Source: a virus
Reading direction: 5' to 3' (one strand)
Virus record (IMG/VR): IMGVR_UViG_3300049215_000529
Location: 124,001-188,000 of that record
DNA length: 64,000 nt
Both the position numbers and the translations under genes were made by a program. Below, in pieces: positions 11,117-61,899 of this stretch (positions within the stretch are counted from its first letter, which is position 1; each line of letters opens with the position of its first letter). The notes beneath the pieces are model-generated. The model ran no database searches and was not told where the DNA came from. It saw only the letters and a list, made by a program, of their open reading frames with translations.

Positions 11117-11191
11117 TGGTATCCCCAACAGGAATCGAACCTGTACTGATCGTTTCGAAGACGATCGTGATATCCTTTTCACTATAGGGAC
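11117..11191 (-). tRNA. tRNA-Arg (TCG)
   Basis: Cloverleaf on the minus strand with encoded CCA. Anticodon arm ATCGT-CTTCGAA-ACGAT, T-loop GTTCGATTC. The top acceptor pair is G1-U72, a mark shared with three other Arg tRNAs here. Confidence 0.9.
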
Positions 11192-11373
11192 ATACATCTC
11201 TTATGTCAAGGGATCAATCTCAAAATAAGAGCGGTCTTTGACTCGAACGTTTCTCGATGATGAAATTCCGAATATCTGGTTCCTGCATGTAAATGCTTCA
11301 TTCGCTCATCTTGCGAATGGGATCCATGCCCCGTCTTTCCTTAAAAGAAACGGCATGACAGCGACGACTGCCC
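11192..11373. other. Spacer between two Arg tRNAs
   Basis: No gene found. Holds a TTGACA at about 11205-11210 whose best -10 falls inside the tRNA, and a perfect 7-bp hairpin with 7-nt loop (CATTCGC / GCGAATG, 11299-11319). May be remnants of lost tRNA genes. Confidence 0.4.
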
Positions 11374-11452
<79 letters not shown>

Positions 11453-11456
11453 ATAA

Positions 11457-11894
11457 TTACAAACGTATGCCTTTATAGTAGTTGAATTGCTTTGCTGTTT
11501 TCTTTTTGTGACAGTTGGCACACCTTACGTCACATTTTTGAATTTCTTGTTTTATTGTCTCCAAGCTGAGCGTTCGCATCTCGCTCACATTATAAGTCTT
11601 GTCGCTACGATGGTCAAATTCTAAAACTATCGGATCTGTTTCTCCACAATCAATACATGGATTTTCTTTCAAGTAATCAATCATGAACTGCAAATTACTT
11701 ACTCTAATTTTATAATTGCGTTTCTTTGCTTTCGCAAGGTAATAATCTGTACGTAACTCGTAATGTTCTTTGTGAAGAACAGCTATACATTTCTTGCAAC
11801 GATGCTGAAGTCCGTCTTTCGAGCCAGCTCTTTTATTGAAATGATCTTCTAATGGGGTAGGATAATCTGTTTTACACTTCGTACAAATCTTCAT
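11457..11894 (-). CDS. HNH homing endonuclease
   Basis: 145 residues. N-terminal zinc module MKICTKC ... CKKC, then the HNH core CIDCG / LEFDHRSDK / CANCHKKK. Same family as the genes at 1472 and 16050. It lies within the tRNA array between two Arg(ACG) genes, the typical niche of a free-standing homing endonuclease. Ends 4 nt before the downstream tRNA. Confidence 0.85.
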   Translation of the reverse strand: MKICTKCKTDYPTPLEDHFNKRAGSKDGLQHRCKKCIAVLHKEHYELRTDYYLAKAKKRNYKIRVSNLQFMIDYLKENPCIDCGETDPIVLEFDHRSDKTYNVSEMRTLSLETIKQEIQKCDVRCANCHKKKTAKQFNYYKGIRL

Positions 11895-11935
11895 ACAAAG
11901 GATACGAAACTATTGATACATTTCGTATCAAATTC

Positions 11936-12021
11936 TGGCACGCCCGCTCGGAGTTGAACCGAGATAAAGAGTTTCGTAGACTCTTACGTAGACTCTTACG
12001 TAGATCCGCTACGACGGGCGT
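11936..12021 (-). tRNA. tRNA-Arg (ACG)-like with internal 12-nt tandem duplication
   Basis: Acceptor ACGCCCG/CGGGCGT, T-arm, encoded CCA and anticodon arm AGAGT-CTACGAA-ACTCT are all present. Between D-arm and anticodon arm a 12-nt unit (TAAGAGTCTACG) occurs twice in tandem, giving 86 nt; one copy removed leaves a normal 74-nt tRNA. Probably a recently damaged tRNA, unless the insert is processed out. Confidence 0.7.
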
Positions 12022-12024
12022 ATT

Positions 12025-12099
12025 TGGTATCTCTGATTGGACTCGAACCAACATAAAACTGCTTAGAAGGCAGCTGCCTTTCCATTAGACTACAGAGAC
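12025..12099 (-). tRNA. tRNA-Arg (TCT)
   Basis: Anticodon arm GCTGC-CTTCTAA-GCAGT, T-loop GTTCGAGTC, encoded CCA, G1-U72. Reads AGA. Confidence 0.9.
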
Positions 12100-12116
12100 A
12101 TAAAACAAAACTTACT

Positions 12117-12193
12117 TGGCATGCCCAGAAGGATTTGAACCCTCAACCTATCGGGTAGAAGCCGATCGCTCTGTCCAGTTGAGCTATGAGCAC
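12117..12193 (-). tRNA. tRNA-Arg (TCT), second copy
   Basis: Anticodon arm ATCGG-CTTCTAC-CCGAT, acceptor GTGCTCA/TGGGCAT (again G1-U72), G73 discriminator, encoded CCA. Sequence is well diverged from the other TCT gene. Confidence 0.85.
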
Positions 12194-12213
12194 ATAAAGA
12201 AACCAAAGTTTCT

Positions 12214-12288
12214 TGGTGATCCCTACGGGAATCGAACCCGTGTTAACAGATTGAGAATCTGCCGTCCTAGCCGCTAGACGAAGGGACC
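12214..12288 (-). tRNA. tRNA-Glu (CTC)
   Basis: Anticodon arm GCAGA-TTCTCAA-TCTGT, acceptor GGTCCCT, T-loop GTTCGATTC, encoded CCA. Reads GAG. Confidence 0.9.
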
Positions 12289-12319
12289 ATCGTATCTATT
12301 ATATCAGCTTATTAGCCGA

Positions 12320-12517
12320 TTAATGCCATCTAATTTCTTGTGGCTTTGGTTTGCAAACCGCAGGAGAATCAACTCCGTAAAATCCACAATACTCACCACG
12401 AGAACACTCACCATCATTTCCACAGAATTTTGCACCCTTAGGAACCGAACTCATGTCTACTTTATAAGCACATCCGATAACAAAAGCAACTGCTAACAAA
12501 ATTAATACTTTTTTCAT
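12320..12517 (-). CDS. Small lipoprotein, 65 aa
   Basis: Signal peptide MKKVLILLAVAFVIGC ends in a lipobox (VIGC), so the mature Cys16 would be lipid-modified and membrane-anchored. The mature part is Cys-rich (CGNDGECSRGEYCGF) and probably disulfide-bonded. It sits inside the tRNA cluster, one base from the next tRNA. Possible superinfection-exclusion or envelope role is only a guess; many phage moron lipoproteins look like this. Confidence 0.75.
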   Translation of the reverse strand: MKKVLILLAVAFVIGCAYKVDMSSVPKGAKFCGNDGECSRGEYCGFYGVDSPAVCKPKPQEIRWH

Positions 12518-12592
12518 TGGTGATCTGTACGAGAATCGAACTCGTGTGACAGCCTTGAAAGGGCTGGGTCCTAACCGCTAGACGAACAGACC
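12518..12592 (-). tRNA. tRNA-Glu (TTC)
   Basis: Anticodon arm CAGCC-CTTTCAA-GGCTG, acceptor GGTCTGT, encoded CCA. Reads GAA/GAG. Confidence 0.9.
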
Positions 12593-12594
12593 GT

Positions 12595-12669
12595 TGGTAC
12601 TCCGTAGGGGTATCGATCCCCTTTTTCCTGGGTGAAAACCAAGTATCCTAGCCACTAGATGAACGGAGC
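12595..12669 (-). tRNA. tRNA-Glu (TTC), second copy
   Basis: Anticodon arm CTTGG-TTTTCAC-CCAGG, acceptor GCTCCGT/ACGGAGT, encoded CCA. Only 2 nt from its neighbour. Confidence 0.85.
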
Positions 12670-12678
12670 ATAACTTAC

Positions 12679-12755
12679 TGGGGTGAGCGACGGGATTCGA
12701 ACCCGCTTATCGAGTGGTCACAACACCCGACCATTACCAAATGGAAACGCACACC
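12679..12755 (-). tRNA. tRNA-His (GTG)
   Basis: Anticodon arm GGGTG-TTGTGAC-CACTC. Genomic G-1 opposite C73 before an encoded CCA, the identity mark of tRNA-His. One T-T mismatch in the acceptor stem (position 4-69). Confidence 0.85.
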
Positions 12756-12766
12756 ATAAACTTACT

Positions 12767-12843
12767 TGGGGTGTCGTACGGGTTTCGATCCCGTCGAAGA
12801 TTGGTTCACAGCCAACCGGGGTCACCAGCTCCCTCACGACACC
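12767..12843 (-). tRNA. tRNA-His (GTG), second copy
   Basis: Anticodon arm GTTGG-CTGTGAA-CCAAT, fully paired acceptor GTGTCGT/ACGACAC, G-1 and C73 present, encoded CCA. First tRNA of the block in the direction of transcription. Confidence 0.9.
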
Positions 12844-12860
12844 ATAATCTGGTAATATTC

Positions 12861-12889
12861 TTGCTTAATTATTAGTATATTTCTATATA
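12861..12889 (+). promoter_or_regulatory. Sigma70-type promoter, plus strand
   Basis: TTGCTT (12861-12866), 17-bp spacer, TATATA (12884-12889), 22 nt before the ATG of the 12911 gene. Confidence 0.5.
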
Positions 12890-12910
12890 TCCTAGTTCAA
12901 GGGGTTTTTA

Positions 12911-13318
12911 ATGTCCTACACAATCGAGCAATTATTAACTTTAGCCACTCAATTTGATGAGCTATCTTCGGAGTCTTTGCAGAAAACTGCTGCAAAGAAA
13001 GAGAAAAAGAAGCTAGATCCTAAGGCTGAAGTTCGTAATAGAGGCAACGTTTGTGTTCCAGCTGAACAAGCCAAGGACAAGAAAGACCATTTCCCAATTA
13101 ATAATGCCGATCAAGCACGTAATGCTTTGTCTCGTGTTCATCAATACAGCTCTGTTCCAGAGTGGTACAAAGGTTCTTTGAAGGGTCTTCAAGCTTTAGT
13201 AGCAAGAAAAGTAAAAGCTAAGTATCCAAAGATTGATGTCGGCGGTAAAGATAAGAAATCCAAGAAAGCTGCTTTGGATGAAATCAATTCACTTCTTTCC
13301 AAGTACGCTGCTGAGTAA
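12911..13318 (+). CDS. Hypothetical protein, 135 aa, DUF6582-like
   Basis: One of the few plus-strand genes, with an AGGGG ribosome-binding site. Lys-rich. The middle (HFPINNADQARNALSRVHQY ... WYKGSLKGLQALV) resembles the 'lpi/ARAAL' core of DUF6582-type phage proteins, whose role is unknown. N-terminal MSYTIEQLLTLATQFDELS is helical. Plus strand and lysine-rich tail suggest a late or virion protein (inference). Confidence 0.65.
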   Translation: MSYTIEQLLTLATQFDELSSESLQKTAAKKEKKKLDPKAEVRNRGNVCVPAEQAKDKKDHFPINNADQARNALSRVHQYSSVPEWYKGSLKGLQALVARKVKAKYPKIDVGGKDKKSKKAALDEINSLLSKYAAE

Positions 13319-13477
13319 TTCTTTATATTCTTCACCACATCTCTTCTCGTGAGTTTCATAATTCACGACATCAATATTTGTGTGACAAGTAGGGCACTCA
13401 TAGCAGCAAGGCATGATGTGAGCAACATCAAAGTCGCCGTCATGACAATGACAATCACATTCTTCACCGAATAACAT
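13289..13477 (-). CDS. Small zinc-binding protein, 62 aa
   Basis: Cys/His-rich: CDCHCH near the N-terminus, CCYECPTCH in the middle, and H/C further on. Likely a zinc-knuckle protein. Its 3' end overlaps the convergent 12911 gene by 30 nt, and its start is adjacent to the HNH gene stop. Confidence 0.55.
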   Translation of the reverse strand: MLFGEECDCHCHDGDFDVAHIMPCCYECPTCHTNIDVVNYETHEKRCGEEYKELLSSVLGKK

Positions 13478-13967
13478 TTATTTAGCCTTCATATTTTTAG
13501 AACAAAAATTATCTGTTTGTGAATGACAGTTAGGGCAAAGGAATCTAAGATTTTCTCTGCGATTATCAAGCCCATTACCATTTTTATGATCAACTTGAAG
13601 AACTAATTTCTTACCGTTCCATTCTGATTTCAAACCACATTCACACTGTTCTGGAACGCCAGACTCTACTAGTGCTCGTTTTATTTTCCAACCATGATCT
13701 CTGCGACCGCCCAGTCTATCAAAAACAAGAATAGTTTCAGCCGATAATTTTGGAAATCCACCTTTATGAGGTTTGCCTTGGTTAGTAGCTAAACCTGTAA
13801 AATGTGAGGTATCTATGTTATAAAGTTTAAATCTGGATTTCAAATGAGAACTGCTGCCACCACTTATCTTTAAACCAAGCTCTCTCATTACCTGCTAGTA
13901 AGAGAAACACTTTTTTAACAATTGGCTCTAATAGTTCTTTGGAATATTTTTGATTGTTCTTACTCAT
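13478..13967 (-). CDS. HNH endonuclease, 5' part frameshifted
   Basis: The intact frame (13478-13888, 136 aa) has the HNH core CECG ... LQVDHKNGNGLDNRREN ... CPNCH. The real start appears to be upstream at 13967 (MSKNNQKYSKELLEPIVKK), in another frame. Joining them as IVKKSVSLTS then VMRELGLKISGG needs one base added at an A6 run and two bases (AG) removed just before the intact frame. The family N-terminus recalled from other phages supports this. Either decayed or misread; the HNH half could still be made from the internal ATG at 13888. Confidence 0.7.
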
Positions 13968-13975
13968 TTAGAATC

Positions 13976-14061
13976 TGGTACTACTGGAGGGACTTGAACC
14001 CCCATGCCCTTACGAGCGCAACGTTCTTAGCGTTGTGTGTCTGCCGTTCCACCACAGTAGC
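13976..14061 (-). tRNA. tRNA-Leu (AAG)
   Basis: Class II tRNA with a long variable arm. Anticodon arm CAACG-CTAAGAA-CGTTG, encoded CCA. A34 in a leucine tRNA is unusual for bacteria. Confidence 0.9.
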
Positions 14062-14066
14062 ATAAG

Positions 14067-14152
14067 TGGTGCTATCAGAGGGACTTGAACCCCCACGGGA
14101 TTACTCCCAACAGGTTCTAAGCCTGCCGCGTCTGCCGTTCCGCCATGATAGC
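14067..14152 (-). tRNA. tRNA-Leu (TAG)
   Basis: Class II with long variable arm; anticodon arm GCAGG-CTTAGAA-CCTGT, encoded CCA. Reads CUA and probably other CUN codons. Confidence 0.9.
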
Positions 14153-14156
14153 ATTT

Positions 14157-14233
14157 TGGTGCTCAAGATGGGAGTCGAACCCATAAAACCTACTTTCTGA
14201 GAGTAGTACGTATGCCAATTCCGTCACCTGAGC
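14157..14233 (-). tRNA. tRNA-Leu (CAG) with short variable loop
   Basis: Anticodon arm CTACT-CTCAGAA-AGTAG, acceptor GCTCAGG/CTTGAGC, encoded CCA. D-arm resembles its Leu neighbours but the variable region is only about 5-6 nt instead of a class II arm. Confidence 0.85.
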
Positions 14234-14338
14234 GTGATGCCTTTATATATCGTCTTATTCCCAGATTTCTCGGAGAATGTCACCCACTAAGATAAGTCGG
14301 CAGCACATGATTGTCAAGACTGACAATTTTAAAATTAA

Positions 14339-14425
14339 TGGTGGTCATGGTGGGAATCGAACCCACACGGGATTGCTCCCAACAGTTTTTGAGACTGCCG
14401 CGTCTGCCTATTCCGCCACACGACC
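14339..14425 (-). tRNA. tRNA-Leu (CAA)
   Basis: Class II; anticodon arm GCAGT-CTCAAAA-ACTGT, acceptor GGTCGTG/CATGACC, encoded CCA. First Leu tRNA after the promoter at 14448-14475. The 105-nt spacer to the next Leu tRNA holds no gene. Confidence 0.9.
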
Positions 14426-31165: not shown

Positions 31166-33040
31166 TTACTTGACCAAATCCAAAAACTCTTCTTCCGAAA
31201 TCAAGTTAGTGCCCAGCTTACGTGCAGCTTGCGCCTTTGAACTTGTGCTGCTAGGGTCAGCAATTACCAAGTAGGTAAGTCCTTTGCCCACAGAACTCTT
31301 AACATCAGCACCAGCCTCAGCCGCCATCTTCTCCAAGAGTGGGCGCTTGTTCTTCATAGCGCCAGTGAAACAGACTGACTTGCCAGTCATATTACCAATT
31401 ATTTTGGCTTTGACCTCTACTCCATTGTTAAGTAAGTCCAAAATCAATTTCTGATTGTGTCGCAAACCATCTGCCAAGAACTTTGCCTTGGTCGGACCAA
31501 CACCCGGCACTTGTTCAAAGGCTTCGGCATTGAGTTGCCCAAACTTCTCTAGTGTATCACAGCCCGCGTTCATGATTGCCTTGATTGTGCTTTGACCAAT
31601 CATCGGAATACTAAGGGCTCCAAGCAAAACTTCCAGACCAATCTCTTTGTTAGCCCATAGAATGTCCAAACACTTCTGCGCGGTCTTGTCCCCCAAGCGA
31701 TCTAGCTCAGAGATATCTGTTAGCTTCAAGGTGTATAGGTCAGCAACTGTAGTAACCTTCTTGGCATCCACTAGTTTCTCAACCAAAGAATCGCCCCACT
31801 CAAGTAGATTAAGCTCTTTGACCCAGTTCTTGATACGACCAATGACCTGTGCACGGCAACGTTTAGTGTTGCCACACATCAAATTCTCACCATCCATCTT
31901 GGTCAGACCGCCACATTCAGGGCAGAAGTGAGGCGCCTTGGCAACTTTGCCAGTACCCTTGACCAACTCTTCAATGCGAGGGATAACATCATTGGCTCGG
32001 GCAACCAAAACAGTTGCGCCGATATCCAACTTCAACTCTTCAATGTATGACATATTGTAGATGCTAGCTCGGGTGACTGTCGCGCCCACTAGTTGCACAG
32101 GATCAACCACAGCAACCGGAGTAATACGTCCGCTGTTACCTACTTGCCAAATGATATCACGAATGACTGACTCGCGAGCTTCGTTATCAAACTTGAAAGC
32201 AATAGCTCCCTTGGGTCGCATATCCTTGTCACCAAGTGCAAGTTGCTTCTCCATGTTGTCAACACGAATTACCAAGCCGTCGATATCGTAATCCAACTTG
32301 TCACGCTTGTCATCTTGATACTCTCGCCAATGCTTATTGACCATATCAGCATTCTTCATTACCCACCAGTTGGGGGTATCGAGGTCTTGATTGACGAGCC
32401 ATACGAATTGCAACTGCTCATTACCAAAGTCTACATCGCCTAGCACCTGATAGAACATGATGTTGAGCTTATCAACACCTACGCCATCCAAGCGCTTGCT
32501 GGTACCAGAGGCTGCATTACGAGGATTAGCCTTGTCAGCAAAGTATTGCTTGTGGTTGCTCCTGGTCATGATAATTTCGCCACGCAAGGAACCAGTAAAC
32601 TTGTCTTTCAGATGAGACCGAACACCACCCATCTTAACAACGTTGACTGTAATGTCTTCACCAGTCTCGCCATCACCACGAGTAATGGCTTGTACGAGGC
32701 TACCCTTTTCGTAAATCAGCTCGATGGATAGACCGTCAAGCTTCTCAGTAACGAAAAGTTTGCCATCAGGGTAAGTATCTTCAACCCATTTGGACAGCTC
32801 GGCAGGTGTATTGACTTTATCCAATGAGCCCATGGGGATTTGATGCTTGGCTTTCTTCCATTCAGAAGGGACGATAGGAGCACCAATTGCAGTGACAGCC
32901 TTGCTGGTAGGGTCTAAAGTTCGCAATTCATCTACCCAGGCATCGTATACCTTATCCGAAACAGAGGGTTGATGGTTGTAATAATCAGTGCGGGCTTGGA
33001 AAATCTTGTTTTCTAGCTCTTTGATACGATCCTTCGTCAT
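31166..33040 (-). CDS. ligA: NAD+-dependent DNA ligase
   Basis: 624 residues against about 670 in bacteria. Domain Ia (YYNHQPSVSDKVYD, 20-33, binds NMN part), adenylation Lys100 in EKLDGLS, OB fold, Zn finger (CPECGG ... CGNTKRC), helix-hairpin-helix region and C-terminal BRCT (FTGAMKNKRP ...). Seals DNA nicks using NAD+ and releases NMN, which NadM-Nudix here could turn back to NAD+. Has its own strong promoter at 33120-33148. Confidence 0.95.
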   Translation of the reverse strand: MTKDRIKELENKIFQARTDYYNHQPSVSDKVYDAWVDELRTLDPTSKAVTAIGAPIVPSEWKKAKHQIPMGSLDKVNTPAELSKWVEDTYPDGKLFVTEKLDGLSIELIYEKGSLVQAITRGDGETGEDITVNVVKMGGVRSHLKDKFTGSLRGEIIMTRSNHKQYFADKANPRNAASGTSKRLDGVGVDKLNIMFYQVLGDVDFGNEQLQFVWLVNQDLDTPNWWVMKNADMVNKHWREYQDDKRDKLDYDIDGLVIRVDNMEKQLALGDKDMRPKGAIAFKFDNEARESVIRDIIWQVGNSGRITPVAVVDPVQLVGATVTRASIYNMSYIEELKLDIGATVLVARANDVIPRIEELVKGTGKVAKAPHFCPECGGLTKMDGENLMCGNTKRCRAQVIGRIKNWVKELNLLEWGDSLVEKLVDAKKVTTVADLYTLKLTDISELDRLGDKTAQKCLDILWANKEIGLEVLLGALSIPMIGQSTIKAIMNAGCDTLEKFGQLNAEAFEQVPGVGPTKAKFLADGLRHNQKLILDLLNNGVEVKAKIIGNMTGKSVCFTGAMKNKRPLLEKMAAEAGADVKSSVGKGLTYLVIADPSSTSSKAQAARKLGTNLISEEEFLDLVK

Positions 33041-33718: not shown

Positions 33719-34354
33719 TTATCCTACGGTCGGCTCCTGTAGCTCGATAATGGTACTATATCGAGTAATCAGGTGCCTTATTTCATCTCTTACTACAGTG
33801 ATATTTGACAAATACATCGGAGGACAAATTTGCATCATCTGATCAAACAATGGAAAATACTTTTCCTTGGTTTCTTTAACTTGCTTTTTCTGGAATTCGG
33901 GAGTCGTTCCAGGAATCATTAAAGAACGTAGGTTGTCTAGGCGGTCGCAAGCCTTGAGGGCAAGTGCCTTCCAATTTTTACAGTTGTTTAGACGGTCAAG
34001 ATATCCCTCTTTAGGGACCTTGCTCAGGACCTTGACTAAGGATACTACTTCGGTTCCAAAGCAATGCTCTAATAGTTCTGGCGACAGGTCCTGACAATCC
34101 TCGATAGAGTCGTGAAGTAAAGCTGCAATAATCATGTCTTTATCCATGATTTTCATTTCATCCATTAGGACAATGGCAACTCGGCGAACGTGCTCGAAAT
34201 ATCGAGTAGGTTTTCCGTCCGTAAGTTCTTTTCTAGTCTGGGCACGATGCCCGAATTTGGCTAGAGTATATGCGAGTTTGACGTCAAGCTGATCCGAAGG
34301 GCTAAAGTAAGGTCTAATTCTGGATTGAAACGTTTCTTTATTTTCGGTTGCCAT
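33719..34354 (-). CDS. SpoT/MESH1-like HD hydrolase
   Basis: Start at MATENKE (34354), 211 residues. HD-domain motifs: [18 protein letters not shown] and LLHDSIED, matching the (p)ppGpp hydrolase half of RelA/SpoT without a synthetase. Probably degrades alarmone (p)ppGpp, which would counter the host stringent response (inference). Start overlaps the 3' end of an HNH gene. Confidence 0.75.
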
Positions 34355-34898
34355 ATAATTCAATTATCTCCTCAGCATATTTTAGTAAATCTTCTATTCT
34401 TTTACCGCAGGGCTGTTTTGTGCTCCAAAGTTCAAGATTTTCTAGCCTGTTATCATCCCTGTTGCCATTTTTATGATGAACATTCTCACTTTTTAAAAGA
34501 GATCTGCCCAAATATTTTTCCATAACGTATCTGTGTTCAAGAATATATTTACCATCTCTATATACTTTTCGGTAACCACCAGATTTTATTGAGCCATCTC
34601 TACCAGATTTATCAAACCTTTTGGTTCCTCTTAAAGGAATATTGTGCTCTTTTAATACAATGTACAGCTGTTCAGAACAGATTTTGAACTTGTTTTTGAT
34701 TTGATTTATAGTATTTTTCTTATCAAGATACAAATTAATCAATTTAGTTTTTTCACCTGGTTTCCACTGCCTTTGATTGTGAGCAATTCTAGTTGGCTTA
34801 TCAGTAGTTCCGTGACGTTTCCAGCGCCTATAATGCAAATCACATAAATCTCGCGCTACAACTTTTTTATTACAATCTGGTATATTACAAAACCTCAT
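34338..34898 (-). CDS. HNH homing endonuclease (H-N-H with N-terminal zinc module)
   Basis: Start at [10 protein letters not shown] (34898). N-terminal CxxxxC/CxxH zinc module, a helical DNA-binding segment, then [15 protein letters not shown] and [19 protein letters not shown], the standard phage HNH_3 core. Sits before the HD hydrolase gene. Confidence 0.85.
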
Positions 34899-34964: not shown

Positions 34965-34993
34965 AATATAACCACTGCGCGCCCTTTAATCAA
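34965..34993 (-). promoter_or_regulatory. Sigma70-type promoter upstream of the HNH/HD genes
   Basis: Minus strand: TTGATT (34988-34993), 17-bp spacer, TATATT (34965-34970). Shares AGTGGTTATATTAA with the Leu tRNA promoter. Confidence 0.5.
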
Positions 34994-35321
34994 GCTCGGT
35001 GGAGGCATCGCAATCTTTTTCGTCCTGCCATATTTTTAAAGCATCAGCACGTGATATCTTAAAGTGTCTAAGAAGAGCCTCTAATAAAATATAGTCATTT
35101 GCCTCTTCTTTACGACAAATACAACAGCTATATCTTGTGTTATCGTAATCATCATCGTTCTCATCATTATTTTCGTCCTCACCCTCTTCTTCGTCTAAGG
35201 GTTGTGGGTCAGCACATTTGTTTGAACAAAATTGATTGGAACATTCTTCGCAGAAATAGTAGTTTCCACAATCAGGAAAGTTACGACTACAATTTGCACA
35301 TGTATAAAAATCAACACCCAT
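34986..35321 (-). CDS. Zinc-finger protein, 111 aa
   Basis: Cys-rich N-terminus (CANCSRNFPDCG, CEEC, CSNKC) like a MYND/LIM-style cluster, an acidic Glu/Asp/Asn run, then CCICRKEE. Starts within one base of the pheS stop. Unknown role. Confidence 0.6.
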   Translation of the reverse strand: MGVDFYTCANCSRNFPDCGNYYFCEECSNQFCSNKCADPQPLDEEEGEDENNDENDDDYDNTRYSCCICRKEEANDYILLEALLRHFKISRADALKIWQDEKDCDASTELD

Positions 35322-36424
35322 TATCTCATCTCCACTTCTAGTTCTGAAACGAGCCTTTTTCTAATGGCTCTTTGTATTTTTTCTACTTCTGAGTTTTTTA
35401 GAGTTGTATCAATAGAACGATAAGTCACTCTGTAGCAATGCGAGGTTTTATCCTTCTTTTTAAACTGATCGATTAGTTCAATGGACTCAATGTAGTTGAG
35501 CTTATCTTCTTCACGGGCAATGCTACAGAAGTCATTGTATGTGAATTTAGGGCTAAGATAGAATGACACATCCTTATAGCACATCTCATACTTAGAATAG
35601 GGCTTGAATTTGGTAATCTTGCCAGCCTTGAATTGATCTAAGAAACGCGGGTCAGTGCTCCAGAATAGTCGAATATCAGGGATATCGAACATAACCATTG
35701 CCAATCGCTCTAACCCAAGACCAAATGCCCAGGCTTGAGTACCTGGTAAACCAAGGTCTTTCATGATATCGGGGTGAACGGTACCCGCGCCAAGGATTTC
35801 TAGGTCTTTAGTTGACCCATCTTCCATCTTGAACTTGACCTCTACTTCCAAAGAATCAACTGTAAAAGGGAAGTAGATGTTTTTGTGCTCTGAATCCTCT
35901 AAAAATCGGAAGACACACTTATCACCGAATAGGTGTTTTACCAGTCCTGTTAATCTTTTACGCAAATCCTTCTTAACATCAGTGCCAGGATCTACGATGT
36001 AGAAGGCATCCATCTGATGGAAAGCTGGATAATGGGTCGCATCAATGGCGTCTTTTCGATATACATCACCACAGGTAATATATCGAAGTCTACTTTGACC
36101 ACTGTTAGTATGACCAAGTGGATACAAATAGCAAGTCATGTGTGTTCTTAATACAGTCTTTTCATCTAAATAGAATGTATCAGATGGGCTTCTAGATGGG
36201 TGATCTTCGGGAACACGTAATCTATCGAAATTATATTCGATAGGTACATATGGATTGTCAATATCGATTTTGGCTAAATCCGAAAAGTACTCAAATACCT
36301 TCTCTTTAACAATGGCAATCGGATGATTTGGCTCATTGTACAGATTCTTACCAATTTTTTCGATAATACTGCTAGGGATGTTATTCATAACGTACTTTTG
36401 ACTTTCCAGATTTCCTTTAGCCAT
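35321..36424 (-). CDS. pheS: Single-chain phenylalanyl-tRNA synthetase (mitochondrial FARS2-like architecture)
   Basis: 367 residues. Class II core: DHPSRSPSDTFY (74-85), QMDAFYIVD (137-145), LEILGAGTVHPDI (208-220) and motif 3 AFGLGLERLAM (233-243). From about 273 to the end comes a ferredoxin-fold anticodon-binding domain (FKPYSKYEMCYKDVSFYL ...), which in bacteria is at the end of the beta subunit. No beta subunit gene is seen. This is the layout of mitochondrial PheRS, a one-chain enzyme. Charges tRNA-Phe; no tRNA-Phe here. Overlaps the SGNH gene by 40 nt. Confidence 0.9.
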   Translation of the reverse strand: MAKGNLESQKYVMNNIPSSIIEKIGKNLYNEPNHPIAIVKEKVFEYFSDLAKIDIDNPYVPIEYNFDRLRVPEDHPSRSPSDTFYLDEKTVLRTHMTCYLYPLGHTNSGQSRLRYITCGDVYRKDAIDATHYPAFHQMDAFYIVDPGTDVKKDLRKRLTGLVKHLFGDKCVFRFLEDSEHKNIYFPFTVDSLEVEVKFKMEDGSTKDLEILGAGTVHPDIMKDLGLPGTQAWAFGLGLERLAMVMFDIPDIRLFWSTDPRFLDQFKAGKITKFKPYSKYEMCYKDVSFYLSPKFTYNDFCSIAREEDKLNYIESIELIDQFKKKDKTSHCYRVTYRSIDTTLKNSEVEKIQRAIRKRLVSELEVEMR

Positions 36425-36954
36425 TTGACTGTGCCGTCCGGTGTGGGATGAACTCCATCACCCAGTGGTATGTTCAAGCTCTCTGTATCAATGTAAGCAC
36501 AAGTTGGAGTGACTTTATTTTTTAATAAAGTGTTGATGACATGTTTTTCGCCATGTACGGCGGTTGGTCCCACCCAAATACACTTGAGGTGACGGGCGGT
36601 AACTTCGTTTAATATTCGCTGTACACTTGGTAACCATGGAAAATTGAAATTAACCGTTCCCAAAAAGATGATTACCACATCAGTTCTAGGAGATTGATTC
36701 AGTGCTTCTGTGAAATGACCATCATTCCAATAGGTAATTGGCGTACCACCCTTGTAATGAACTGTAATTGTCTCATTAGGCTGCCTGACGTCATTAAGTT
36801 TCCAGCTGGCATAGCCAGCAGTAGAATCTCCCACTATTGTAATGTTTTGATGTGGAGGAGCAACATCGGTTCCGGCATCTTCTTCTGATAAATTAGATGA
36901 AGAGGCTACTGATTGGCACCCCAAAATCAATGGTAAAAGATAGTACAGTCTCAT
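36385..36954 (-). CDS. SGNH/GDSL-like hydrolase lipoprotein
   Basis: 189 residues. Signal MRLYYLLPLILGC with lipobox LILGC. GDSTAG (block I, catalytic Ser) and GVHPTPDG (block V, Asp-His-type) are the SGNH signature. Probably an envelope esterase, for example a cell-wall or polysaccharide deacetylase. Overlaps the upstream lysozyme-like gene by 4 nt. Confidence 0.7.
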   Translation of the reverse strand: MRLYYLLPLILGCQSVASSSNLSEEDAGTDVAPPHQNITIVGDSTAGYASWKLNDVRQPNETITVHYKGGTPITYWNDGHFTEALNQSPRTDVVIIFLGTVNFNFPWLPSVQRILNEVTARHLKCIWVGPTAVHGEKHVINTLLKNKVTPTCAYIDTESLNIPLGDGVHPTPDGTVKWLKEIWKVKSTL

Positions 36955-37514: not shown

Positions 37515-38615
37515 TTATTTTCCTGTTCCCAGGAATTTTTTAATGGATGGCAAGATTTCATTTCGGTTGTTAATTTCACTTAAAATCACCTTATCCTTTT
37601 GAGAAGTCCCAAGAAAGGAGGATTCTAATACTTTGAGGAAATTACCAGTTCCCGAATTAACCTGACCATAACAAAATAAATTGGAGTTAGGGATGATTTT
37701 CGACTCTAATAAAGAGACCGCAACTGCATCATCTGAATCTCCCCAATTGTCTCCGTCACTAAAGTGGAATGGATATACATTATATTCAGCAAATGGATAT
37801 TCATTTTCCATCATAGTGGCACAGAATTTATACGCAGAAGAAATACTAGTACCACCTGATTCAGAGATAGTGAAAAACTGCTCACGATCTACTTCTGATG
37901 CTACTGTATCATGGATAATGAATCGGGATTCAATATCCTTGTACTGATATTTCAGCCATAGATCAATCCAAAATACTTCAGATTTAACTATGTGCTTTTG
38001 TTCGGCTCCCATTGAACCAGATACATCCATCATATAGATAACGACAGTATTGATATTTGGTTCTTCAATAGGAATAGCGGCACGATATCTCCTATCAGCC
38101 TTGATAGGAAACATCCCAGGTTTTCCTGGTTCATAAGTGCCAGAAGCGATATTTCGCTTCAGCATCTCTTTGTAGGTTCTTTTGAAGTGTTTGAGTCCTT
38201 CAGAACCTACCGTTCTAATTCCAGTATATTTGTTTTTACTGGAGGCAATTTTACCTTTGCCCTTCTCATCAACATTTGGAAGAGATAGTTCTTCGCTCAA
38301 AAGTTGAGCTAGTTCATCGGCAGTAAATTCGGCTTGATAGCCATGCTGACCCTCATCATTACCAGCCTTACCTTTTCCTTGACCAGGCTTGCCTTGACCG
38401 TCAATTGGATCACCGTCTTCACCTTCTCCTTGACCTGTACCACCACCATGACTGTGGGTAAAATGGGGCAGGTCAATACTATCAATTGGAATTGAAACGC
38501 GCTTATTTCCCTGCTGTCCGATTAACTGATCGGAGCTTACATATTTGCCAAGGTTGTGCTTTACCTTATTTCGAACGATGTTTTTAAAACGACCAACATC
38601 CTGATCTATTTTCAT
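37515..38615 (-). CDS. DUF444/YeaH-like VWA protein
   Basis: 366 residues. N-terminal basic region, Gly/Asp/Gln-rich linker (54-95), and a VWA domain with MIDAS MDVSGSMG and GGTSISSAY. This is the YeaH/UPF0229 group, which in bacteria pairs with the PrkA kinase; none is seen here. A second VWA system distinct from the DUF2201/MoxR pair at 6-9 kb. Confidence 0.8.
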   Translation of the reverse strand: MKIDQDVGRFKNIVRNKVKHNLGKYVSSDQLIGQQGNKRVSIPIDSIDLPHFTHSHGGGTGQGEGEDGDPIDGQGKPGQGKGKAGNDEGQHGYQAEFTADELAQLLSEELSLPNVDEKGKGKIASSKNKYTGIRTVGSEGLKHFKRTYKEMLKRNIASGTYEPGKPGMFPIKADRRYRAAIPIEEPNINTVVIYMMDVSGSMGAEQKHIVKSEVFWIDLWLKYQYKDIESRFIIHDTVASEVDREQFFTISESGGTSISSAYKFCATMMENEYPFAEYNVYPFHFSDGDNWGDSDDAVAVSLLESKIIPNSNLFCYGQVNSGTGNFLKVLESSFLGTSQKDKVILSEINNRNEILPSIKKFLGTGK

Positions 38616-39496
38616 TTTGGTGGAATCCTTGTAGCAAGTACAGTCGTTTCCAGATCTCCCACAGCTTTCACCATGTCATTAAATCTTTTGCTTACGTAGA
38701 CATGCTTTTCAATATAGCTTCTATCCTGTGAAAAGATAGGGATTTCGTTATCTACTACCCACTCAGTACGCTCTGCATTGAATACTTCACCAGTTTTGGG
38801 GTTAGTGCCCTGTTTCATCACTTTGGTCTTGACAATACAGCGACCACGTTTTTGAGAGGTTGGACAGTCATTCCAGTTGATACCCTTTTGGAAACATAGT
38901 TCTTGTAGCTCAGAATTACCTTTACCCTCTAATTGTTTGTGAGAGTATAGAGTACAAGCTAGCATTTGAACTGAGTTTCGGGTGGCATCCTGTTGGCGCC
39001 ATAGAAAATAGTTCACCACTTCTTCTTTCGGAACAATGAAGGCGCGGCTATCGAAATAAGCTGGTCTGTTGAAATCACACTCACTCATAGGATCGGCACC
39101 AGCATCAACTTCAGCGGAAGTTTTGGGCGCCCAAATTTGCCAAGAGTTCATTGTAAACGTAACCGATGCCATTGATGCAGAAATACTAACCATCTTCTGT
39201 AGGTTATTATCAAACCATGATTGGGTGTCAACGTCTGTATAATTGTTTAGCAGCAATGAAATCTCATCAGATTGCACATAGGCAATTTGACAGCCTTGAA
39301 CATGCTCGCAAAGATACTTTGCGGTTTCGTTCATACAATCGATCAAACCTTGATCTAGAGGTCGCTTACAGCCCTTGGTGTAAGTATGAAATGCTTTGCC
39401 GTCAATACGAAGAATAACGGGCATTCTAATGGGCAAATGTGTCCTATAAGCATCCTCATAGGATTTCATTCTGTCGCCTAGATTATCATTGCTCAT
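38612..39496 (-). CDS. Thg1-like 3'-5' RNA polymerase (tRNA-His guanylyltransferase family)
   Basis: 294 residues. Catalytic ILRIDGKAFHTYTKG (D32) and QSDEISL (D77/E78) are the metal-binding motifs of Thg1/TLP enzymes, which add nucleotides in the reverse (3'-5') direction. True Thg1 adds G-1 to tRNA-His; bacterial relatives repair 5'-truncated tRNAs. Both His tRNAs here already encode G-1, so a repair role is more likely (inference). Longer than bacterial TLPs, closer to eukaryotic Thg1 in length. Overlaps DUF444 by 4 nt. Confidence 0.9.
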   Translation of the reverse strand: MSNDNLGDRMKSYEDAYRTHLPIRMPVILRIDGKAFHTYTKGCKRPLDQGLIDCMNETAKYLCEHVQGCQIAYVQSDEISLLLNNYTDVDTQSWFDNNLQKMVSISASMASVTFTMNSWQIWAPKTSAEVDAGADPMSECDFNRPAYFDSRAFIVPKEEVVNYFLWRQQDATRNSVQMLACTLYSHKQLEGKGNSELQELCFQKGINWNDCPTSQKRGRCIVKTKVMKQGTNPKTGEVFNAERTEWVVDNEIPIFSQDRSYIEKHVYVSKRFNDMVKAVGDLETTVLATRIPPK

Positions 39497-49160: not shown

Positions 49161-49192
49161 ATTAACCTCGCTCTTCTTTAGAGCATGCATTC

Positions 49193-57861: not shown

Positions 57862-58262
57862 AAAAATACTTTCAATCGATTAATCTTGTGAACAACTTTT
57901 AGAATGTGACAAATTTTATCAACAATCTCATTAGGAGAGTTAGAGTCAAATGTGGCTTCGTAATGATCAATAACAAATATTTTTTTGATTTCTTCTATCT
58001 CTTGAAACCTGTTATCAATAAGTGGTACAATAGTTTTCTCTGCGATGATTTCGCCCTCTTTGTCACGCGTCAATTCAGTTAGACTAAGTGTGACAGTGCG
58101 CCCGGTTTGGCTTCCTTCCGGTCTAACTACTTCTGCTATGACCTTGTAGTGCGGTAAGACTAGATAGTAATTGACCTGAGGAAGCGTACTTATATAGAAC
58201 GCTGCCTGCTTTCTAAACTTAGAAAGGTCTAATTTTTCACCAAAATCTAATCGTAATTTCAT
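57858..58262 (-). CDS. Hypothetical protein, 134 aa
   Basis: Start at MKLRLDFGEK (58262), whose ATG shares a base with the CCA end of the upstream tRNA (CCATG). Basic, beta-rich. Unknown; overlaps the 2H gene by 4 nt. Confidence 0.6.
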   Translation of the reverse strand: MKLRLDFGEKLDLSKFRKQAAFYISTLPQVNYYLVLPHYKVIAEVVRPEGSQTGRTVTLSLTELTRDKEGEIIAEKTIVPLIDNRFQEIEEIKKIFVIDHYEATFDSNSPNEIVDKICHILKVVHKINRLKVFL

Positions 58263-58335
58263 GGTTCCGGGGTTGGGGATCGAACCCAAATCAGATCATT
58301 CGGAATAACCTATCCTGCCATTAGACGAACCCGGA
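58262..58335 (-). tRNA. tRNA-Arg (CCG)
   Basis: Anticodon arm GGTTA-TTCCGAA-TGATC, acceptor TCCGGGT/CCCCGGA with one mismatch, encoded CCA. Reads CGG. Directly abuts the Gln tRNA with no spacer. Confidence 0.85.
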
Positions 58336-58409
58336 TGGCTGGGATACTAGGATTCGAACCTAGATAAAAGGATTCAGAGACCTTTGTCCTGCCGTTAGAC
58401 GATATCCCA
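58336..58409 (-). tRNA. tRNA-Gln (CTG)
   Basis: Acceptor TGGGATA/TATCCCA with G73, both usual for tRNA-Gln, encoded CCA. Anticodon loop CTCTGAA reads CAG. The top anticodon-stem pair nearest the loop is T-T. Confidence 0.85.
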
Positions 58410-58436
58410 ATCAACATAATGTAAACTTATTACCAG

Positions 58437-58637
58437 TCACTTCTTTAATACAACCGGTTGTCTAGAAGAGCAGTAACGCTTGCAATTTTCCAAAAACTCT
58501 TCTTCTGGAGACAATTTTTTAATCATGTCTCCCGGCTTAGTTTCCACTGTTCCATCACGAACTTTACTTGGCATTTGTCTGCTGAGCCACCAATAAGAGG
58601 CGTCAACTAGCTTGAGAAAAACATCGACAGCTTTCAT
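58437..58637 (-). CDS. Hypothetical protein, 66 aa
   Basis: Lys/Glu-rich, soluble. Overlaps the next gene by 4 nt (ATGA). Unknown. Confidence 0.5.
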   Translation of the reverse strand: MKAVDVFLKLVDASYWWLSRQMPSKVRDGTVETKPGDMIKKLSPEEEFLENCKRYCSSRQPVVLKK

Positions 58638-58999
58638 TCAGCATAATCCAAGAAGGGATGCCACCCAAGTGTATCCAACCAAAAATTGCAGAACGTATGG
58701 TAATCCTGAGTAACTACGTCTTCAGCGAAAGCTTTCTTTAGTTTGGTAAGCTCATCAAAATAAGTATCCTTATCTTGCCTTAAAACGTCCACTTGCTTTG
58801 CAAGCATATCAGATGCAACACGCGGCTCCCAATTAATAGCGAGAGCTGTGTTGGTTTTAACCTTACGAAGCTCTATCTCTACTTCATCAAGACGATCAAA
58901 TAACAAATCAAATGCATCAACCATCTTTGCAAAGAACTCAATCGGATCTTTATTTCCAATCATGTGCTTCATATCTTTTAATACATCTTCACGTTTCAT
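58634..58999 (-). CDS. Hypothetical protein, 121 aa
   Basis: Start at MKREDVLKDM (58999), overlapping the upstream stop (ATGA). Helical with a coiled-coil segment (DLLFDRLDEVEIELRK). Unknown. Confidence 0.6.
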   Translation of the reverse strand: MKREDVLKDMKHMIGNKDPIEFFAKMVDAFDLLFDRLDEVEIELRKVKTNTALAINWEPRVASDMLAKQVDVLRQDKDTYFDELTKLKKAFAEDVVTQDYHTFCNFWLDTLGWHPFLDYAE

Positions 59000-59352
59000 G
59001 TTATGCTTTCTCGCTCTCGTTTTGATTTTTCCCAAAATTCTTTGTATTCCTTGATATCCCGCTCTAATTCGGAAGGCAGATTATTCATGCGCAACCAAAA
59101 CTCTTTAATGAGTGAACCAGACATATCATCTGCATGAGTAAACCCTAAGGAAGTCATTTGGGCGGCTAAGGGTCCACCACTCCAAAGTCCCCAGTTGTTA
59201 CGCATCCACCTACCCAAACCATGATGATATCTATACAGATCTTCTCTAGTACCCTTGGTCAACTCAATTTGTTCCTCAGGAGATAATATCTTGGTTAGAG
59301 CCACCATCGCCTCTTCAAAAGTGGTGGGGACTTCAGCATTTTTTGAATTCAT
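58996..59352 (-). CDS. DUF6794-like protein
   Basis: 118 residues. TFEEAMVALTKILSPEEQIE then YRYHHGLGRWMRNNWGLW and HADDMSGSLIKEFW fit the DUF6794 pattern (Phe/Tyr-HxGLG-(M/R)xxRNxxGLW ... HpDD). Small protein of unknown function common in phages. Confidence 0.6.
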   Translation of the reverse strand: MNSKNAEVPTTFEEAMVALTKILSPEEQIELTKGTREDLYRYHHGLGRWMRNNWGLWSGGPLAAQMTSLGFTHADDMSGSLIKEFWLRMNNLPSELERDIKEYKEFWEKSKRERESIT

Positions 59353-59648
59353 TGGCTAACCAAGTCGCCTAACTCTTGAACTGGATCTTTTGGTTGCACG
59401 GTCATGGCAACAAACTTGTTAGCAAGTTCCTTTAATGCCGAAGGAAGATCGCTTCCCTGAGCCTTGCAAACTACCAACTTATCCTTGGCGAATGCACCAG
59501 TATAACGAACCACAGAGCAATAATAGCCCTTCTTGAGAGCAGAGACTGTAACTCCTGGAGACGTCTTGTCGTCGCGAAACCTAAAGCTAACCGCCTTAGT
59601 TAGTTTGTCCATCAATTGATCGGTTGTAACATTCATATTCTTCTTCAT
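59349..59648 (-). CDS. Hypothetical protein, 99 aa
   Basis: Soluble; FRFRDDKTSPGVTVSALKKG and FAKDKLVVCKAQ suggest a small beta protein. Follows the tsf gene by 15 nt. Unknown. Confidence 0.55.
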   Translation of the reverse strand: MKKNMNVTTDQLMDKLTKAVSFRFRDDKTSPGVTVSALKKGYYCSVVRYTGAFAKDKLVVCKAQGSDLPSALKELANKFVAMTVQPKDPVQELGDLVSQ

Positions 59649-59663
59649 AGTATACCTTTATTG

Positions 59664-60521
59664 TTATGCACCAACTTGGCAACGGATAAATCCAACTACT
59701 TGAATGTCTCCGCCCAGTTTGGCGCTCATATTTTTCACGACCTGTTGAACTGAAGTCTTAGGCTGAACCACTGACTCCTGCTCTAACAAACAGACTTCAG
59801 TATGCCACTTCTTGAACTTTCCTTCTAAAATCTTTGCCCAAGCAGCCTGAGGTTTGTTCATTTCCTTCAGTTGCGCTTCAAAGATTCCCCTTTGTCTTTC
59901 AACTACCTCGGCTGGTAAAGAGTCAACAGAAACTGCAACTGAACTCATGGCTGCCACTTGCATTGCTAATTCCTCTCCAAGAGTTTTGAAATCTTCAGTA
60001 TTAGCCGCCTCTACCGAGGGAGCTACCATGGAAAGCAAGACACCAATCTTATTATTGGAGTGTATGTAGTGACACACTCTGCCAGCCTCTGGCATCACTT
60101 GCTCAACCCACCAACGACGAATGACAATGTTCTCTTTAGTTTTAGAGATTAAGTCCTTTCGTGCATTTTCCAAGACGTCGCAATCATGATAGAATGGATT
60201 AGACTGAGCTACATCGGATCCAAGTTGGAAAGATACTAGATCCACAAACTTATTAAAGTCAGGACTATTAGCAACAAAATCAGTCTGGCAATTGACCTCG
60301 ACCATACTCTTGGTTCGATTATCTCCAACATGACCAATGCGAACAATACCTTCCGTAGCAACATTATTGCTGGTGCGGGAGACTACATTAAGACCTTTGA
60401 TCTTTACGATATCCACTGCCTTTTGCAAGTCCCATGCGGCTTCTTCGAGGGCATCTTTGCAGTCCTTCATGCCAGCTTGAGTAAGTGCTCGTAACTCTTT
60501 GATCAGATCAGTGTTGTTCAT
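59664..60521 (-). CDS. tsf: Elongation factor Ts
   Basis: Start at MNNTDLIKELR (60521); 285 residues, close to the bacterial 283. N-terminal UBA (LIKELRALTQAGMKDCKDAL), signature VEVNCQTDFVANSPDF, and a C-terminal dimerisation half. EF-Ts reloads EF-Tu with GTP, so it speeds elongation. Unusual in phages, where EF-Ts otherwise appears as a host subunit of RNA phage replicase. Strong promoter at 60538-60565 and AAAGG site. Confidence 0.95.
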   Translation of the reverse strand: MNNTDLIKELRALTQAGMKDCKDALEEAAWDLQKAVDIVKIKGLNVVSRTSNNVATEGIVRIGHVGDNRTKSMVEVNCQTDFVANSPDFNKFVDLVSFQLGSDVAQSNPFYHDCDVLENARKDLISKTKENIVIRRWWVEQVMPEAGRVCHYIHSNNKIGVLLSMVAPSVEAANTEDFKTLGEELAMQVAAMSSVAVSVDSLPAEVVERQRGIFEAQLKEMNKPQAAWAKILEGKFKKWHTEVCLLEQESVVQPKTSVQQVVKNMSAKLGGDIQVVGFIRCQVGA

Positions 60522-60537
60522 AGTAATACCTTTGCGC

Positions 60538-60565
60538 AAAGTAAATCTTAAAAATTGTAAGTCAA
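60538..60565 (-). promoter_or_regulatory. Sigma70-type promoter for tsf
   Basis: Minus strand: TTGACT (60560-60565), 16-bp spacer, TACTTT (60538-60543). Spacer differs from the iscA promoter by only one base. Confidence 0.6.
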
Positions 60566-60698
60566 GGGCGGCAAATTTTTAATATAATCCAAATATCTTG
60601 AGCCGCCTCGACTCATATAACGATTCCTGCCTCTTTTTAATTTATAAACTTAATGTGAATAATAGATCATACTGATAATAGAATTAGAGAGGAACAAT

Positions 60699-61439
60699 AT
60701 GCTTATTGCTGTTATTAATCAATCTACAATGGTAAATAATATTGATGTAAATACCATGTGCCAAGCCATTCAAATTCAGCTTAGTCTGCATGTACTACCT
60801 GCTTATAATATGAAGGCAGCTACTGTTACTTTCTATGCCGATAAAACTAAAGTCCCAGGCTATGCTTGGGTAATTAGCGTGCTTGATAACTCTACACAAG
60901 CTGGCGCTCTTGGTTATCACTCCGAAGACAATGATAAGGTTGATGGATACATCTTTGCTCAACCAGTTTTAAGTAATGCTGGGGTGGTATTGTATGATAC
61001 AAACAATCCACAAAATGTCAGCGTTGCTTCTGTATTGAGTCATGAAATTTGTGAAATGGTTGGTGATCGCTTTGCCAATGCATGGGTCGATGGTCCAGCC
61101 ATCGCTCAAGGTAGCGAATATGCTCAAGAATTATGCGATCCAGTAGAAGGCGATTCTTATGCCATTACTGTTAATGGTGCAAAGGTTTCAGTATCTAACT
61201 TCATCTTTCCTTCTTGGTTCAATCCAGAAGCAACGACAGTTAACTTGCCATTTGATTATCTAGGAAAACTCAAAGCACCATTTACCATGACTCCTGGCGG
61301 CTACATGATCGTTCGTCAGTCTGGTACGGTCTCTCAAGTATTTGGTGAAGAGATGCCAGAATGGAAGAGAGAAGTTAAGCGTGCCAAAGCAGCTAAGCGT
61401 CCTTCTAAGACTAGAAAAAAGTTTCTAGGAATATTCTAA
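60699..61439 (+). CDS. Probable virion protein with metallopeptidase-like motif, 246 aa
   Basis: GAGAGGAAC before ATG. The block VLSHEICEMVGDRFANAWVD contains a HExxE-like sequence, and QELCDPVEGDSYAIT follows; this pairing recurs in phage-associated proteins of unknown function. C-terminal 35 residues are Lys/Arg-rich (KREVKRAKAAKRPSKTRKK). Could be a processing peptidase or a head protein. Plus strand, like the Kelch protein downstream. Confidence 0.6.
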   Translation: MLIAVINQSTMVNNIDVNTMCQAIQIQLSLHVLPAYNMKAATVTFYADKTKVPGYAWVISVLDNSTQAGALGYHSEDNDKVDGYIFAQPVLSNAGVVLYDTNNPQNVSVASVLSHEICEMVGDRFANAWVDGPAIAQGSEYAQELCDPVEGDSYAITVNGAKVSVSNFIFPSWFNPEATTVNLPFDYLGKLKAPFTMTPGGYMIVRQSGTVSQVFGEEMPEWKREVKRAKAAKRPSKTRKKFLGIF

Positions 61440-61443
61440 ATAA

Positions 61444-61521
61444 TGGAGCGGGTGATGGGACTCGAACCCATGATGATGTCTGCTTGGAAGGCAGATGCCG
61501 TCGCCACTGAGCCACACCCGC
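61444..61521 (-). tRNA. tRNA-Gly (TCC)
   Basis: Anticodon arm TCTGC-CTTCCAA-GCAGA, acceptor GCGGGTG/CACCCGC, encoded CCA. Reads GGA/GGG. Confidence 0.9.
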
Positions 61522-61544
61522 ATTTTAACAGCTTTGCACTTACT

Positions 61545-61619
61545 TGGAGCGGTTAACGAGAATCGAACTCGTGTCCCTAGAATGGCAATCTAGGATTCTA
61601 CCATTGGACCATAACCGCT
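61545..61619 (-). tRNA. tRNA-Gly (GCC)
   Basis: Anticodon arm CTAGA-TTGCCAT-TCTAG, acceptor AGCGGTT/AACCGCT (A1-U72), encoded CCA. Reads GGC/GGU. Confidence 0.9.
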
Positions 61620-61663
61620 TAATAGACGACTAAAATTGATGAGATCTTTTTCCAATCTCTTAC

Positions 61664-61742
61664 GAGAAAGGTTGATGGGTTTGAACCATCTATTCTAAAG
61701 TTTCCCTTAGAAATTTACCATGTAATCACATCAGCATTCGTC
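61664..61742 (-). tRNA. tRNA-like remnant
   Basis: Intact T-arm GATGG-TTCAAAC-CCATC, and a possible anticodon hairpin around GGGAAA whose position 33 is not T. No clean acceptor or CCA. Probably a decayed tRNA inside the Gly block. Confidence 0.3.
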
Positions 61743-61744
61743 TG

Positions 61745-61819
61745 TGGAGCGGATGACGGGGCTCGAACCCGTGACATTCTGCTTGGCAAGCAGACATTCT
61801 ACCACTGAATTACATCCGC
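61745..61819 (-). tRNA. tRNA-Gly (GCC), second copy
   Basis: Anticodon arm TCTGC-TTGCCAA-GCAGA, acceptor GCGGATG/CATCCGC, encoded CCA. Confidence 0.9.
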
Positions 61820-61825
61820 ATGGTA

Positions 61826-61899
61826 TGGAGCGGGCAACCGGAATCGAACCGGTATAGCTAGCTTGGAAGGCTAGAGCACAACCATTATGCCATGCCCGC
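61826..61899 (-). tRNA. tRNA-Gly (TCC), second copy
   Basis: Anticodon arm CTAGC-CTTCCAA-GCTAG, acceptor GCGGGCA/TGCCCGC, encoded CCA. First tRNA after the promoter. Confidence 0.9.

Follow-up and report, generated by a model that had tools for sequence, protein, structure and literature searches.

How does a phage come to encode a phenylalanyl-tRNA synthetase (PheRS) built as a single chain, in the manner of the mitochondrial enzyme, and what would such an enzyme do during infection? The gene in question lies on the minus strand at 35321..36388 of a 64,000-nucleotide stretch of DNA, the window, which covers bases 124001-188000 of the 204,190-bp virus record IMGVR_UViG_3300049215_000529, itself a fragment. 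Until now, no prokaryotic counterpart of the one-chain mitochondrial PheRS was known to us. Judged from its sequence, the gene very probably encodes a FARS2-type one-chain PheRS, devoid of a beta subunit and of an editing module, that would charge tRNA-Phe for phage protein synthesis.

Family assignment, fold and the beta subunit

The open reading frame (ORF) at 35321-36424 (minus strand) yields 367 residues when read from ATG 36424, and an earlier note, made from the letters alone, had reported the gene at this span. The ORF is real, but the true start is probably ATG 36388, giving 355 residues (35321-36388), because relatives start with 'M(N/S)NI' and because this ATG overlaps the upstream stop codon (ATGA). 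The class II PheRS catalytic core (PF01409 tRNA-synt_2d, 7.4e-53) occupies residues 26-265 in the 367-residue numbering (35630..36349, minus strand), and alignments locate its motif 2 (GDVYRKDAID) and motif 3 (WAFGLGLERLAM). After a linker of about 11 residues (35597-35629, minus strand), the C-terminal residues 277-367 (35324..35596, minus strand) match FDX-ACB (PF03147, 2.8e-16; 60 bits, cut-off 31), so that the core and anticodon domain which the earlier note saw in one chain are both recovered. The protein passes the curated cut-off of the mitochondrial NCBIfam model TIGR00469 (pheS_mito; 267.5 bits against 258.35), in agreement with the mitochondrial type first proposed for it, and falls below those of the bacterial model TIGR00468 (pheS; 171.2 against 237.45) and of NF051887, the model of the 'PheS-related mystery ligase' SrmL (200.3 against 300). 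An identity as SrmL is rejected on this score and because SrmL branches elsewhere in the trees described below.

Scans of IMG/VR returned 29 PheRS loci in contigs of up to 536 kb. Seventeen are close in sequence to the window gene (68-74% identical; one of them, 100% identical, is probably the same phage), and 12 divergent copies, 42-49% identical to it, came from contigs of 69-536 kb in a scan with phage and human FARS2 patterns. Another profile scan and a search by motif added no loci; L225, raised by the RTHTSAHQ motif scan, which otherwise gave known loci only, is a chance match. L088 resembles frameshifted bacterial DNA. All tested phage copies but one exceed the TIGR00469 cut-off, the divergent copies that were scored reaching 320-386 bits and a human FARS2 fragment 433.

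The claim that no beta subunit is present holds over a wider range of DNA than the window. The pheT model matches the window PheRS through its FDX-ACB end alone, and this was the sole pheT match in the whole 204,190-bp record, a fragment. Matches in 6 phage relatives were limited to the PheRS C-terminus, and a set of 16 phage records, the longest of which measures 536 kb, gave none beyond the PheRS FDX-ACB ends, save two trivial matches of 18-21 bits; the two sets of records overlap partly and their members may be fragments.

The predicted structure leads to the same family. An AlphaFold2 model built on 16 close sequences scored 77.5 in the predicted local distance difference test (pLDDT), and a model of the 355-residue form from 24 phage sequences, including divergent ones, reached a pLDDT of 90.1 and a predicted TM-score of 0.87. 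In Foldseek the latter folds like human mitochondrial PheRS over its full length, the top match being 3cmq (TMq 0.89, root-mean-square deviation 2.5, E 1e-38); the tRNA-bound open form 3tup gave 0.65, and matches to bacterial PheS mostly covered about 240 columns. By sequence, too, the best solved relative is the human mitochondrial enzyme (8.5e-72), bacterial PheS matching at about 1e-35 over the core only. The BFVD library of predicted viral structures held no close match, the best being a giant-virus prolyl-tRNA synthetase (TM-score 0.44).

Common ancestry with FARS2 and the direction of transfer

Does the likeness to the mitochondrial enzyme reflect common descent? In all trees FARS2 is represented by one eukaryotic sequence (human, residues 164-197 missing). 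The core tree (49 rows) unites phages and FARS2 with 98/100 support and sets them apart, by a stem 2.8 changes per column long, from 21 bacterial PheS, 2 phage PheS of the two-subunit type and SrmL, and both the core + FDX tree and the FDX-only tree, rooted by PheT C-termini, do so with 100/100. A placement of FARS2 with alphaproteobacteria is rejected (p 1e-52 for the joint data, 6e-28 for the core, 1e-3 for FDX). Over the core, human FARS2 is 54% identical to the phage copy L093, 44% to the window and 30-36% to bacteria, the window itself being 35-38% identical to bacterial PheS; RNLHN, TSAHQ, GDVYR, HYPxFHQ, IPDIRLFW and TSHCYRITYR are signatures common to the phage proteins and FARS2. The core tree supersedes an earlier one without divergent phages, in which FARS2 formed a long branch between phage and bacteria. 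We consider it well supported, on sequence comparison, that the phage one-chain PheRS and FARS2 share one origin, and the fusion of core and FDX-ACB most likely occurred once, because both domains agree in the trees and the junction signatures are shared.

A convergent origin, with phages and mitochondria each fusing bacterial pheS to the pheT B8 domain independently, is easily imagined, as the two halves are homologous to PheS and PheT B8. It is nevertheless extremely improbable and we reject it, since the separate trees of core and FDX-ACB each place the phages with FARS2 on long stems at 98-100% support, and since FDX identity is 41-46% between FARS2 and phages against 14-28% between FARS2 and PheT, the signatures again being common to both. 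A recent capture of a host pheS is rejected as well, given the long stem and an identity to bacteria of about 35%. Within the joint clade, FARS2 falls within or at the base of phage diversity; the best trees place it inside, with weak support, and a phage clade excluding FARS2 appears in 0-20% of bootstrap trees and is not rejected by the approximately unbiased test (p-AU 0.26-0.46). Phage origin of the mitochondrial form or convergence were the two options raised by the earlier note; the second falls with the domain trees, whereas the first is compatible with the data at these p-AU values.

In which direction, then, did the gene travel? One-chain PheRS may have arisen in phages, or been spread by them, and an early eukaryote may have gained it from a phage that infected either the mitochondrial ancestor or its prey. 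We regard this as a real possibility, short of probable; it concerns direction only and is compatible with a charging enzyme. It is favored by the diversity of the phage copies, which differ from one another as much as they are distant from FARS2, the divergent ones lacking synteny to the window, by the position of FARS2 inside the phages and by the failure of the searches described below to find a bacterial gene of this type. Against it, phage monophyly without FARS2 is not rejected, and the reading depends on a single eukaryotic sequence. With the same reserve, FARS2 itself could be of phage origin, the one-chain fusion having arisen in huge phages or been carried by them, and could have replaced the two-subunit enzyme of the mitochondrial ancestor early in eukaryote evolution. 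A phage origin has been proposed for the mitochondrial RNA polymerase, Twinkle and DNA polymerase, and if it were true of FARS2, a translation enzyme would join them.

An unsampled or extinct bacterial lineage with a one-chain PheRS could instead have been the donor to both phages and mitochondria. The existence of SrmL, a PheS-like one-chain relative, in cellular replicons indicates that such proteins can sit in bacteria. Yet TIGR00469 was passed by 0 of 399 Pseudomonadota genomes and 0 of 14 control genomes, other bacterial phyla not being excluded by this profile search; the plasmid and phage collections held no FARS2-type gene, their only near-full-length matches being one SrmL and one SrmL-like gene; and a GTDB-wide scan, which used patterns of the window's subclade only, returned no bacterial one-chain FARS2-type gene. 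Within that coverage, we think a bacterial donor somewhat unlikely.

The opposite direction, in which phages took the gene from mitochondrial PheRS and then spread it, is compatible with the tree, and huge phages hold many synthetase genes related to cellular ones, according to the main text of PMC7162821. We nonetheless judge it unlikely: phages infect prokaryotes, and the copies are deeply divergent, lack the human FARS2 insert of about 35 residues and have no gene order in common among phages. The phage enzymes are the closest relatives found of the human mitochondrial enzyme, and a component of mitochondrial translation may therefore have a common origin with a phage gene. As diverse homologues exist in prokaryotic viruses, their identity to the human core reaching 54%, the question of origin is directly testable with eukaryotic sequences, and the finding may bear on the source of mitochondrial PheRS.

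Substrate pocket, tRNA genes and probable role in infection

The amino-acid/ATP pocket loop R93-THMTCYL-100 (36125..36148, minus strand) is altered and conserved in the window's clade, and the alpha-amino pocket Q137-M138-D139 (36008..36016, minus strand) has Asp in place of the Glu of nearly all PheRS; we take these positions to belong to the substrate pocket from general knowledge of Thermus PheRS. M96, T97, C98, Y99, L100 and D139 are invariant in 16 aligned copies of the clade, whereas their equivalents in most bacteria, FARS2 and divergent phages are T, S, (A/P), (H/V), Q and E; the loop thus reads RTHMTCYL in the window, RTHTSAHQ in divergent phage enzymes and RTHTSPVQ in bacteria. Eleven of the 12 divergent phages are canonical (RTHTSAHQ, FHQxE(G/A), FPFT, (W/F)AFGxG), the exception being L095, which has the M, T and D of the window-clade pocket. 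On the phenyl-ring side the window keeps FPF and the motif 3 alanine (Ala233). Since the cellular PheS of Mesomycoplasma has the same Ser to Thr and Glu to Asp pair, the enzyme of the window's clade is expected to retain Phe specificity, with altered kinetics.

Might the clade's enzyme no longer be a plain PheRS, either because its changed pocket takes another substrate or because it is an SrmL-like ligase? The clade-wide conservation of HMT...L and D139 and the similar residues of SrmL speak for this, whereas the retained FPF and motif 3 alanine, the mycoplasma PheS with the same Thr/Asp pair, the SrmL profile score and the separate branch of SrmL speak against it. We hold a change of function to be quite unlikely.

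Of five further phage records inspected, four carry tRNA-Phe in sets of 18-57 tRNAs, and the most likely role of the enzyme is therefore to charge tRNA-Phe in the course of infection. Two of these four are relatives of the window: G004 (268 kb) has 52 tRNAs, two with a GAA anticodon, and a transfer-messenger RNA (tmRNA), and G008 (481 kb) has 57 tRNAs with Phe(gaa) and a tmRNA. Two are divergent phages, G425 (430 kb) with 36 tRNAs including Phe and a tmRNA, and G418 with 18 including Phe. G1-C72, A73 and G34 are present in four standard-length GAA tRNA-Phe. Human mitochondrial PheRS relies on G1-C72 and A73, among other elements, and must rearrange its anticodon domain extensively in order to read G34 (PMC9976931); it has been called permissive for tRNAs (PMC10375062).

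Several observations weigh against this role. The window's own record has 32 tRNAs, none for Phe, and the divergent-phage record G424 has 3 tRNAs, again none for Phe. G1-C72, A73 and G34 occur commonly and have little power to discriminate. Finally, the four conserved changes on the amino-group/ATP side of the pocket in the window's clade (T to M, S to T, Q to L, E to D) make efficient phenylalanylation by these enzymes less certain. As to the first of these, the window's record seems to end short of the arm on which G004 has its tRNA-Phe.

If the enzyme is a charging enzyme, as we favor, its core would activate Phe with ATP and its FDX-ACB would swing onto the anticodon G34, as in human mitochondrial PheRS. 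PheRS is recognized in three forms; the mitochondrial enzyme is monomeric, the two-subunit forms have their editing site in the beta subunit (PMC3275996), and editing has been lost in the mitochondrial form (Roy et al. 2005, as cited in PMC3275996). The phage tRNA-Phe, and probably that of the host, would accordingly be charged without proofreading, and phage protein synthesis would become independent of the two-subunit PheRS of the host. Together, phage tRNA-Phe and one-chain PheRS might form a self-contained Phe-charging module that upholds Phe decoding should the host synthetase or tRNA be limiting or attacked. One chain of 355 residues may be the cheapest way of carrying a PheRS in one gene. 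The phage enzyme also offers a natural compact PheRS, presumably free of editing, for studies of phage translation takeover and as a tRNA-charging tool.

Some tRNA genes deserve mention in their own right. The window holds two clusters on its minus strand, at 11117..14425 (4 Arg, 3 Glu, 2 His, 4 Leu) and at 58262..61899 (Arg, Gln, 4 Gly). Near-complete tRNA sets (36-57) with tmRNA occur in G004, G008 and G425. A 90-nt tRNA of G004 (L020:19695-19784) has a long variable arm and a GAA anticodon, and is either a Ser/Leu/Tyr-like body reading Phe codons or a wrong anticodon call. In the window's own record, a tRNA with a body of about 92 nt (L017:19329-19420) bears the amber anticodon CTA; TAG recoding in that record was considered and rejected, coding density giving it no support and TAG ending only 2% of ORFs of at least 100 residues.

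Carriers, gene neighborhood and relation to known systems

A terminase (TerL) match was found in 8 of 14 tested records, with a strong one in G425 (phrog_2, 8.9e-45), and the carriers are therefore tailed phages; a giant virus or a eukaryotic contig is rejected as the source for records with TerL or tmRNA. PheRS is the synthetase most consistently kept in the window's clade, among those tested: seven of its records have no PF00133 or PF00749 synthetase, a D/K/N-type synthetase occurs in G007 and G008 and a class IIb fragment in G009. In the divergent phage G422 a cysteinyl-tRNA synthetase adjoins PheRS. As PheRS otherwise has four chains and would be hard to bring along, this may be one reason for keeping the one-chain form. 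Directly downstream of PheRS in G425 lies a full BCS1-like protein (L100:11454-12803; BCS1_N + AAA + BCS1 lid), which scores 227 bits against structures of mitochondrial BCS1; many cultured phages likewise encode BCS1-like AAA proteins, so that a second 'mitochondrial' protein has relatives in phages. Two other phages, L087 (PV036440, a Ruminococcus phage, 79.5 kb) and L089 (MT836033), have adjacent pheS- and pheT-like genes of the two-subunit type, hypothetical or unannotated, fast-evolving and together in the tree.

By its codon use the window gene fits its phage, and it is part of a tightly packed, operon-like string, as overlaps at both ends indicate. Upstream, an ORF with a weak GDSL/DUF459-like match and a lipoprotein-like start (36385..36954, minus strand) overlaps the PheRS start with its stop (ATGA); the synteny comparison found no counterpart of it beside PheRS in relatives. 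Downstream, a small CxxC-rich protein (34986..35321, minus strand) overlaps the PheRS stop with its start (TAATG), and counterparts 33-40% identical to it adjoin PheRS in several relatives. The window's clade shares, with some gaps, the block formed by the tRNA-His guanylyltransferase Thg1 (38612..39496, minus strand; PF04446 1.9e-30, phrog_4717 3e-94), PheRS, the HD-domain phosphohydrolase HD_4 (33719..34363, minus strand; PF13328 4e-13) and an NAD-dependent DNA ligase (31166..33040, minus strand; PF01653 3.8e-41); the divergent copies share almost no neighboring genes with the window. Thg1 thus lies close to PheRS in a phage that also has two tRNA-His genes. A DUF444 protein (37515-38615; PF04285 5.5e-81) has no homologue near PheRS in relatives, and a nicotinamide phosphoribosyltransferase (46699-48099) and a nucleotidyltransferase/NUDIX protein (48147-49223) are likely a phage NAD salvage pair.

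How does the enzyme compare with what is known? Huge phages have many tRNAs, tmRNA and up to 15 synthetases related to those of their hosts, according to the main text of Al-Shayeb et al. 2020 (PMC7162821); the window PheRS, in contrast, is related to the mitochondrial form. The string 'phenylalan' is absent from that main text, the supplement of which may contain such genes, and our literature searches found no earlier description of a phage one-chain PheRS outside whatever that supplement may hold. SrmL likewise joins a PheS-like core to an FDX-like tail in a single chain, and its pocket has M, L/I and D (T in one) as in the window's clade, but it has lost FPF; SrmL-type genes occur in a 634-kb phage (L009, LR745206, 417 bits) and, by similarity, on a Glutamicibacter plasmid (L080). 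Bacterial PheS/PheT (TIGR00468) has a homologous core, and FDX-ACB is homologous to the B8 domain of PheT; unlike it, the phage enzyme has no pheT and no PheS N-terminal domain, carries FDX-ACB fused to the core and is separated by a long, well supported branch. Mitochondrial PheRS (FARS2, yeast MSF1; TIGR00469) has the same fusion of core and FDX-ACB, no beta subunit and no B3/B4 editing module. The phage enzyme differs from FARS2 in having neither an N-terminal targeting extension nor the human insert around residues 164-197, and in the pocket, which is changed in the window's clade and, L095 apart, unchanged in the divergent phages. Taken as an enzyme, the window PheRS belongs to a known family; it has a changed pocket and turns up in an unexpected carrier.
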